From an uncultured Litoreibacter sp. (GTDB taxonomy: Bacteria > Pseudomonadota > Alphaproteobacteria > Rhodobacterales > Rhodobacteraceae): a stretch of 64,000 nt of DNA. The notes beneath the pieces were generated by a model. The model was not told where the DNA came from and did no database searches. It worked only from the letters and a program-made list of their open reading frames with translations. Shown piece by piece: positions 13,925-14,977 of the stretch. The first letter of the stretch is position 1. Each line of letters starts with the position of its first letter. The position numbers and the translations under genes are program-made. The DNA is taken from NCBI GenBank assembly GCA_947501685.1, contig CANMWQ010000001.1:620001-684000 (forward strand), read 5' to 3'.

Positions 13925-14368
13925 ATGGATCAGATAAACGAAAAAATATTGCAAGAACTGTCGCGCGACGGGCGGCTCAGCAACCTTGAGCTGTCGGAGC
14001 GCGTCGGCCTGTCGCCCTCCGCCTGTTTGCGGCGCGTGCAGGAACTGGAGCGGCGCGGGGTCATCAAAGGCTACCGCGCGGTGCTGGACCGCGACAAAAT
14101 GGGCGCGGGCTTTGTGGCCTATATCGCGGTGGGGCTGTCGGATCATTCCAAGGCCAGCCAGGAGGCGTTCGAGCGCTCCATCGGGCGGGCCAGCGAGGTG
14201 CGCGAATGCCATAACATCACCGGAACCGTGGAATATATGCTGCGCGTCGAATGCGCAGACTTGCCCAGCTATAAGCATTTTCACACTGAAATTCTGGGCG
14301 TCCTGCCACAGGTCAGCGCGATCACCAGCTATATTGTAATGGGGTCTCCCAAGGACGAGCGGGCGTAG
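13925..14368 (+). CDS. Lrp/AsnC family transcriptional regulator
   Basis: This 147-residue protein has an N-terminal helix-turn-helix (ILQELSRDGRLSNLELSERV, then GLSPSACLRRV, about residues 7-37) and a C-terminal RAM/ligand-binding domain (GFVAYIAVGL to ITSYIVMG). Lrp-type proteins bind amino acids and control transport and catabolism genes. ATG 13925 (MDQINEKI) matches the family N-terminus better than the ORF-track start at 13886. Its divergent partner is a LysE-type exporter, its likely target. Its 3' end faces the terminator of the minus-strand CcsR array. Confidence 0.92.
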   Translation: MDQINEKILQELSRDGRLSNLELSERVGLSPSACLRRVQELERRGVIKGYRAVLDRDKMGAGFVAYIAVGLSDHSKASQEAFERSIGRASEVRECHNITGTVEYMLRVECADLPSYKHFHTEILGVLPQVSAITSYIVMGSPKDERA

Positions 14369-14373
14369 GGGCG

Positions 14374-14409
14374 AAAAAAAACGGTGACACCGGGAGGAGG
14401 TGCCACCGT
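14374..14409 (-). terminator. intrinsic terminator ending the CcsR array
   Basis: On the minus strand the stem ACGGTG-G-CACC/GGTG-T-CACCGT encloses a TCCTCCC loop and is followed by eight T residues (14381-14374). The last CcsR stem-loop therefore doubles as the Rho-independent terminator of the transcript. Confidence 0.88.
14381..14409 (-). ncRNA. ccsR4: CcsR-type sRNA stem-loop 4 (terminator copy)
   Basis: This 29-nt hairpin has a 6-bp outer stem (ACGGTG/CACCGT), one mismatch, and a 4-bp inner stem (CACC/GGTG) closing a TCCTCCC loop. Counting the flanking C, the loop shows CCTCCTCCC, the defining motif of the CcsR (cuckoo) sRNAs of Rhodobacter sphaeroides, which act in one-carbon metabolism and oxidative stress control. 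It is the last of four copies on the minus strand after a DUF1127 gene, and the T-run follows it. Confidence 0.82.
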
Positions 14410-14419
14410 CTCTTATCAG

Positions 14420-14458
14420 TACGGTCCATCCACAAGGGAGGAGGAGGGTTGGACCGTA
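14420..14458 (-). ncRNA. ccsR3: CcsR-type sRNA stem-loop 3
   Basis: On the minus strand a perfect 9-bp stem TACGGTCCA/TGGACCGTA closes a large loop containing CCCTCCTCCTCCC. The motif lies in the loop, exposed for pairing with purine-rich (Shine-Dalgarno-like) targets. Spacing to the neighbouring copies is about 40-44 bases. It is part of the four-unit array described for the DUF1127 locus. Confidence 0.82.
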
Positions 14459-14462
14459 GGGT

Positions 14463-14496
14463 GCGACGCGCTCTGGGAGGAGGATGAGCGTGCCGC
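14463..14496 (-). ncRNA. ccsR2: CcsR-type sRNA stem-loop 2
   Basis: On the minus strand the stem consists of GCGGC paired with GTCGC (one G-U), an A-C mismatch, then CGCTC/GAGCG, closing the loop ATCCTCCTCCCA. The loop holds the complete CCTCCTCCC motif. The G-U pair forms only when the minus strand is transcribed, which supports that strand as the RNA. Confidence 0.82.
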
Positions 14497-14500
14497 GATA

Positions 14501-14543
14501 TTGCGCCGGGCCATCAATCGGGAGGAAATCGGGCCGGGCGCAA
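14501..14543 (-). ncRNA. ccsR1: CcsR-type sRNA stem-loop 1 (degenerate motif)
   Basis: On the minus strand TTGCGCC pairs with GGCGCAA, then a C-C mismatch, then GGCC/GGCC, closing a 19-base loop with TTTCCTCCCGA. The loop keeps only CCTCCC, so this copy has a shortened motif. It begins 5 bases after the DUF1127 stop codon, the position of the first CcsR in Rhodobacter sphaeroides. Confidence 0.75.
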
Positions 14544-14548
14544 ATCTC

Positions 14549-14755
14549 TTAATTCAGATACGCAGCCTCATAGGCGATGCGTTTGATCTCGCTGCGGTGA
14601 ATGCCCAGATCGGCCAGTTCGCGGCCAGACAGGTTGTTCAGCTCTTCAACGGTGCTGCGGTATACTTTCCGACGTGTCGCACGATCCAGCACATCGGCAA
14701 TGACTGCGCGGACACGGTCAGCGAAGCCGTTTTGTGTTGCGGAGATGTAAGCCAT
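14549..14755 (-). CDS. ccaF1: DUF1127 small RNA-binding protein, CcaF1-like
   Basis: This 68-residue protein ends in a DUF1127 domain (EELNNLSGRELADLGIHRSE, then IKRIAYEAAY, about residues 39-66). In Rhodobacter sphaeroides the DUF1127 protein CcaF1 is encoded directly upstream of four CcsR sRNAs, binds RNA and affects sRNA maturation. The same order appears here: the gene is followed on the minus strand by four hairpins with CCTCC-rich loops. ATG 14755 is preceded by GGAAAG, and the longer ORF-track start has no support. The name rests on family and synteny, not on a search. Confidence 0.85.
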   Translation of the reverse strand: MAYISATQNGFADRVRAVIADVLDRATRRKVYRSTVEELNNLSGRELADLGIHRSEIKRIAYEAAYLN

Positions 14756-14829: not shown

Positions 14830-14857
14830 TATGTAGGAAGATGCTGCGCTGCCGCAA
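14830..14857 (-). promoter_or_regulatory. candidate promoter of the ccaF1-CcsR transcript
   Basis: On the minus strand TTGCGG (14857-14852) and TACATA (14835-14830) are separated by 16 bases. This places a start about 65-70 bases before the ccaF1 ATG. In Rhodobacter sphaeroides this transcript depends on RpoHI/RpoHII, whose promoters have TTG-type -35 boxes. The assignment is by eye only. Confidence 0.3.
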
Positions 14858-14977
14858 TAGCTCTTTGATCAATGCTGCTATGCAGCAATTGCATGGCTTA
14901 AGTCTTTGTTTTTTATGGTTAACCCAAGGGCAATTTCCTGCCAAATTGCCTCAATTCTGAGCGGGATACGAACATTT

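Follow-up and report, generated by a model that had tools for sequence, protein, structure and literature searches.

The window analyzed here, a stretch of 64,000 nucleotides from an uncultured marine bacterium, a Litoreibacter species, carries on its minus strand a DUF1127 gene followed by four hairpins. With a probability of roughly 0.88, this is the Litoreibacter version of the CcaF1-CcsR operon (cuckoo, ar14, CIN1), read from an RpoH-type promoter, delivering small RNAs that block Shine-Dalgarno sequences and probably activated by a regulator of the VtlR/LsrB type. Sequence and conservation together establish the gene, the hairpins, the terminator, and the promoter-like and box-like elements. 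These are, in the order of transcription:

14870-14899, minus strand: 30-bp conserved element AAGCCATGCAATTGCTGCATAGCAGCATTG; within it lie a VtlR/LsrB-type box, TGCATAGCAGCATTG (14884-14870), and an ATGC half-site upstream
14831-14858, minus strand: RpoH-like promoter, with -35 ATTGCG (14858-14853), a 15-nt spacer and -10 CCTACAT (14837-14831), kept in the genus
14549-14755, minus strand: DUF1127 gene, ccaF1 orthologue, 68 amino acids (PF06568, E 1.3e-11)
14501-14543, minus strand: hairpin 1, short CCUCCC loop (fold -21.1 kcal/mol, z -3.8)
14463-14496, minus strand: hairpin 2, loop CCUCCUCCC at 14475-14483 (fold -16.8 kcal/mol, z -5.1), within the Rfam ar14 match
14420-14458, minus strand: hairpin 3, loop CCUCCUCCUCCC at 14436-14444 (fold -16.4 kcal/mol, z -3.4), within the ar14 match
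14374-14410, minus strand: hairpin 4, loop CCUCCUCCC at 14392-14400, followed by T8 (fold -20.1 kcal/mol, z -6.4), within the ar14 match

The gene and its hairpin array

The DUF1127 protein has full-length relatives across the Rhodobacteraceae, Cereibacter johrii among them, at 43-88 % identity; its nearest relatives are Litoreibacter entries. The gene directly precedes the array on the same strand, with 5 nt between its stop codon and hairpin 1. Here, the first-pass annotation, made from the letters of the sequence, had seen a DUF1127 reading frame followed by four stem-loops. The PF06568 match and the folds bear this out, with the coordinates right to within a few bases.

Each single hairpin folds better than every shuffle of its own sequence. 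The entire hairpin stretch (14374-14543) has a folding energy of -81.4 kcal/mol (z -8.3), lower than that of any shuffle. The hairpins are evenly packed, at spacings of 42, 36, and 47 nt. As the same annotation had said, three loops are intact and the one next to the gene is not: the DNA of copies 2-4 carries CCTCCTCCC (at 14475-14483, 14436-14444, and 14392-14400, copy 3 strictly reading CCTCCTCCTCCC), while the loop of copy 1 is CCTCCC alone (14520-14525). The last hairpin runs, again as described, into a T8 tract (14381-14374). Judged by this arrangement, hairpin 4 and its T8 are the Rho-independent terminator of the operon.

A covariance-model search had been proposed as a check. It gave a match to Rfam ar14 (RF02344) at 14373-14502 that scored 68.4 bits against a gathering score of 58.8 (E 3.1e-10), the only ar14 match that the Rfam search returned in this genome. 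The match covers hairpins 2-4, the three of the four that carry the CCUCCUCCC loop motif of the cuckoo/ar14 family; it starts at 14502, and hairpin 1, having CCUCCC only, lies outside it. The motif CCTCCTCCC occurs just 29 times in the 3.32 Mb genome, with three of these occurrences falling within 92 bases at the array. Together with the ar14 E value of 3e-10, this argues that the array did not arise by chance.

The array shares with the Rfam ar14/cuckoo family (SmelA075 and SmelA099 in Sinorhizobium) its CCUCCUCCC loops, its variable stems, its several hairpins, and its link to stress. It differs in that the family model covers three hairpins and leaves hairpin 1 out. Matches to ar14 are found in 167 of 200 genomes of the family and in all 21 of the genus. 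In 112 distinct loci where the DUF1127 gene and its downstream region were read, the number of hairpins per array ranged from 1 to 16, with none in seven loci; the hairpin caller uses a fixed window around CCTCC, and may miss or add a copy. The stems show paired changes; the loops are constant.

Some Rhodobacteraceae (L034, L114, L117, L121; for example, Flavimaricola and Pseudotabrizicola) have arrays of 15-16 hairpins, sometimes with evenly repeated spacings. The repetition suggests that such long arrays grew recently in tandem.

Correspondence with the operon of Rhodobacter sphaeroides

In the R. sphaeroides operon, four CcsR RNAs are co-transcribed with ccaF1, whose RNA-binding product influences the maturation of CcsR (PMC10253847). 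An RpoHI/HII promoter, processing that depends on RNase E and CcaF1, and a role in stress defence are also described (PMC10253847, PMC8307010, PMC8625941). By its sequence, the Litoreibacter locus is an orthologue of this CcaF1-CcsR (cuckoo, CIN1) operon. Like the CcaF1-CcsR1-4 operon (RSP_6037, RSs0680a-d; CIN1), it has a DUF1127 gene, downstream hairpins with CCUCCUCCC loops, a terminator, and an RpoH-like promoter sequence. A divergent mrp/apbC gene flanks the DUF1127 gene opposite the array, as it does in most of the named loci, Cereibacter johrii included. Because a DUF1127 gene and hairpins beside a divergent mrp/apbC gene are also found in Cereibacter (the R. sphaeroides group), the orthology proposed from the sequence alone can be accepted. 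By analogy with R. sphaeroides, co-transcription, processing, and stress induction would then be expected here as well.

Orthology does not, however, extend to a count of RNAs. The four hairpins had been equated with the four CcsR RNAs, a reading that fails on two grounds. The RS0680a RNA of R. sphaeroides has two stem-loops (PMC3927594), and both Cereibacter johrii and Luteovulum azotoformans have eight hairpins whose spacing alternates between ~36 and ~75 nt, making four pairs. Since C. johrii has eight paired hairpins and the window has four evenly packed ones, the hairpins do not correspond one-to-one with CcsR1-4. Four sRNAs of two stem-loops each is not the layout here, where there are four hairpins in total; this leaves the orthology unaffected. 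The product of the array could be one RNA of ~170 nt, two RNAs of two hairpins, or four single hairpins. Two further differences may be noted: the DUF1127 protein shares ~57 % identity with its C. johrii counterpart, and the CCUCCC loop of hairpin 1 is distinct and conserved.

On the downstream side, the Lrp and LysE neighbors are largely confined to Litoreibacter. The Lrp gene, stop codon included, ends at 14368, and the array RNA terminates short of the Lrp coding sequence. Thus, the earlier statement that the array lies 5 bases beyond the end of the Lrp gene stands, but the description of it as antisense to Lrp does not: array and gene are convergent, tail-to-tail, and no coding sequence is overlapped.

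The first hairpin

The first-pass annotation treated the degenerate first copy as a specific difference of this locus. It is not peculiar to this genome: eight species share it, and its apical sequence is conserved among them. That sequence, AUUUCCUCCCGAUUGAU (17 nt, 14513-14529), has 16 positions that are invariant in eight Litoreibacter species. A four-hairpin array with AUUUCCUCCCGAUUGAU in its first hairpin is found in eight of the 21 Litoreibacter genomes; the sequence is identical in seven, and the eighth has one change, outside CCUCCC. Both strands of the outer stem of hairpin 1 vary in the same eight genomes (C-G becoming U-A or G-C, for instance), and the two most divergent of them have a different outer stem that still closes. 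The 12-mer CCTCCCGATTGA is absent from the loci compared outside the eight genomes.

A missing TCC unit might, of course, be the mark of a copy that is decaying and has no function. Such decay would fit a pattern seen throughout the family, where 31 % of first and 32 % of last copies lack the full CCTCCTCCC, compared with 9 % of internal copies, a roughly threefold difference. A decaying copy would not, however, be expected to hold 16 of 17 apical positions identical across eight species while its outer stem changes on both sides, nor to retain the CCUCC core for pairing with GGAGG. Decay is, for these reasons, very improbable. Because the apical sequence is fixed while the outer stem co-varies, the constraint falls on the loop beyond its anti-Shine-Dalgarno core. 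Searching this genome for the complement of the apical sequence with up to three mismatches gave no convincing match at a start site.

The RpoH-like promoter and the element upstream of it

The RpoHI/RpoHII control that the first-pass annotation named for R. sphaeroides has a counterpart here in a promoter-like match that is conserved in the genus, there taking the form TTG-N17-CCTAnAT. In sequence, ATTGCG-N15-CCTACAT is close to the alphaproteobacterial RpoH consensus, CTTGNN-N15-16-CCTATNT (PMC4843759). The TTG that matters for RpoHI/HII promoters in R. sphaeroides (PMC3441632) is present here.

Eleven bases upstream of the -35 ends the 30-bp element, kept across the genus and more weakly across the family. 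In reverse complement, it matches 13 of the 15 positions of the box bound in Brucella by the LysR-type regulator VtlR, CAATGCAGCCATGCA (PMC12595884). When the Brucella motif is used unchanged, 75 of the 110 loci agree with it at 13 or 14 positions out of 15, where shuffled upstream regions lead one to expect 0.2; many of these loci are related, so the 75 are not independent events. The box departs at one fixed position (AG for TG) from the proposed form GCAT-N3-TG-N3-T.

In Brucella and Agrobacterium, both DUF1127 orthologues and AbcR sRNAs are direct activation targets of VtlR (PMC12595884, PMC7486931). That VtlR/LsrB regulon and the present locus have in common a box TGCATRGCNGCATTG in front of a DUF1127 gene that is associated with anti-Shine-Dalgarno sRNAs. 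The difference is that the regulon in those organisms includes the AbcR/VrsA sRNAs, whereas here DUF1127 and sRNAs would form one operon with an RpoH-type promoter, for which a VtlR-type regulator is a candidate. One paper calls LsrB/VtlR unique to the Rhizobiales (PMC11975290). A literature search, itself of incomplete coverage, found no report linking VtlR with CcaF1 or CcsR.

The same element might instead be a site for PhaR, which would place the array under a polyhydroxybutyrate-sensing repressor rather than a LysR regulator of the VtlR type. PhaR was at first preferred as the main regulator. The element contains TGCTGCATAGCAGCA, which fits the sequence CTGCNNNGCAG bound by PhaR in R. sphaeroides (PMC12542648). 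Besides this site, the exact 15-mer pattern has just two occurrences in this genome, both between phaP and phaC, and a phaR gene is present. Further, the PhaR/AniA protein of S. meliloti represses MmgR, an sRNA with an anti-Shine-Dalgarno loop (PMC7143759).

PhaR was demoted when a wider alignment showed that bases left free by a PhaR site are nearly fixed. Exact CTGCN3GCAG is found in just 57 of 110 loci, and its half-sites vary independently. Yet in 96 loci selected on the PhaR palindrome alone, columns free under PhaR are strongly conserved: A7 in 92, T17 in 91, T8 in 87, and the upstream ATGC in 78-88. These conserved columns lie outside any competing palindrome. The VtlR box, in contrast, explains A7, T8, and T16-G18, and in other organisms DUF1127 genes are under VtlR control. 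A PhaR site is therefore unlikely to be what the element is, and a LysR activator of the VtlR/LsrB type, its identity suggested by the box, probably acts there.

The phaP-phaC interval with its two exact TGCTGCNNNGCAGCA sites (G000:C4:320781-320823; L259:1501-1543), where phaP is phasin-like and phaR is ~1.7 kb away, looks like a PhaR-regulated phasin promoter.

This genome has two other DUF1127 genes. Downstream of the second (G000:C1:335224-335412; L161) is a single terminator hairpin with the loop TCTCCTCCCT. It was considered as a further cuckoo copy and rejected; the CCTCCC loop is limited to this genome and its two nearest relatives, and the loop differs elsewhere in the genus. Across the genus (L161-L181), another conserved block, ATGC-N7-GCATAGGGG-CATGCAAAAATC, stands ~110 nt before the start codon of this gene. 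Its half-site layout is like that of the VtlR-like box, but it scores 9-11 of 15 to the Brucella motif. The third gene (L003; G000:C1:521574-521660) is without CCUCC hairpins, and apparently adjoins a divergent gene for a LysR-like regulator.

How the operon would act

In the mechanism proposed, a single transcript would start at the RpoH-type promoter, ~70 nt upstream of the DUF1127 gene, and end at hairpin 4. It would encode the small RNA-binding DUF1127 protein. Its 3' UTR, the four hairpins of ~170 nt, would be released or trimmed, probably by RNase E aided by the DUF1127 protein, to give one or more stress-induced sRNAs. Their CCUCC(UCC)C loops would pair with GGAGG(AGG) Shine-Dalgarno sequences, blocking translation of the target mRNAs. 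Binding of a VtlR/LsrB-like LysR regulator to the conserved element, immediately upstream of the -35, would probably also activate transcription.

The loops are complementary to the Shine-Dalgarno sequence, consistent with the pairing that the annotation had predicted, and we infer that they block target mRNAs in this organism. Target prediction for the loops, also suggested there, was run as a pattern search of this genome. The perfect complement of the 9-nt loop has 26 other genomic sites, two of them near the start codon of a recognizable gene. One precedes a gene for an AcoR-like regulator (G000:C11:16336), the other a gene for an ABC-transporter ATPase, where the spacing is only 1 nt. The AcoR-like regulator was dropped as a conserved target after comparison with 20 genus-mates, a close orthologue being found in one. 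No conserved mRNA target of the loops emerged from the pattern search and this comparison.

Hairpins that serve mainly to stabilize the 3' UTR and terminate the DUF1127 mRNA, with CCUCC loops that bind a protein (Hfq or the DUF1127 protein) instead of target mRNAs, would account for this outcome of the pattern search in this genome. They would likewise account for loops that stay constant while stems drift, and CcaF1 is an RNA-binding protein with an effect on CcsR maturation (PMC10253847). Such hairpins would not, however, need loops that are the exact complement of a strong Shine-Dalgarno sequence; a stabilizing role hardly explains arrays with as many as 16 copies; and CcsR1-4 of R. sphaeroides target flhR mRNA (PMC8307010). 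This alternative is accordingly given a low probability, and Shine-Dalgarno-blocking sRNAs remain the preferred reading of the array.

Significance

This is an otherwise ordinary, well-conserved member of its family, in which two points are worth the attention of specialists: the box of VtlR type and the fixed loop of hairpin 1. From them comes a proposal that we hold tentatively, at somewhat under an even chance for its two parts jointly. It is that the CcaF1-cuckoo operon of the Rhodobacteraceae belongs to a VtlR/LsrB-type regulon, with DUF1127 and anti-Shine-Dalgarno sRNAs co-controlled by one kind of regulator in both Rhizobiales and Rhodobacterales, and that hairpin 1 of Litoreibacter has turned into a dedicated element, its extended recognition loop fixed for one specific partner. 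The conserved loop of hairpin 1 offers a concrete 17-nt bait for such a specific partner.

The DUF1127-CcsR operon of R. sphaeroides has been described as RpoH-driven, while the DUF1127 and AbcR genes of Brucella and Agrobacterium are switched on by VtlR/LsrB. A shared box, if true, would show those working on R. sphaeroides which kind of regulator to seek. It would also make of two separately studied regulons one ancient alphaproteobacterial circuit.
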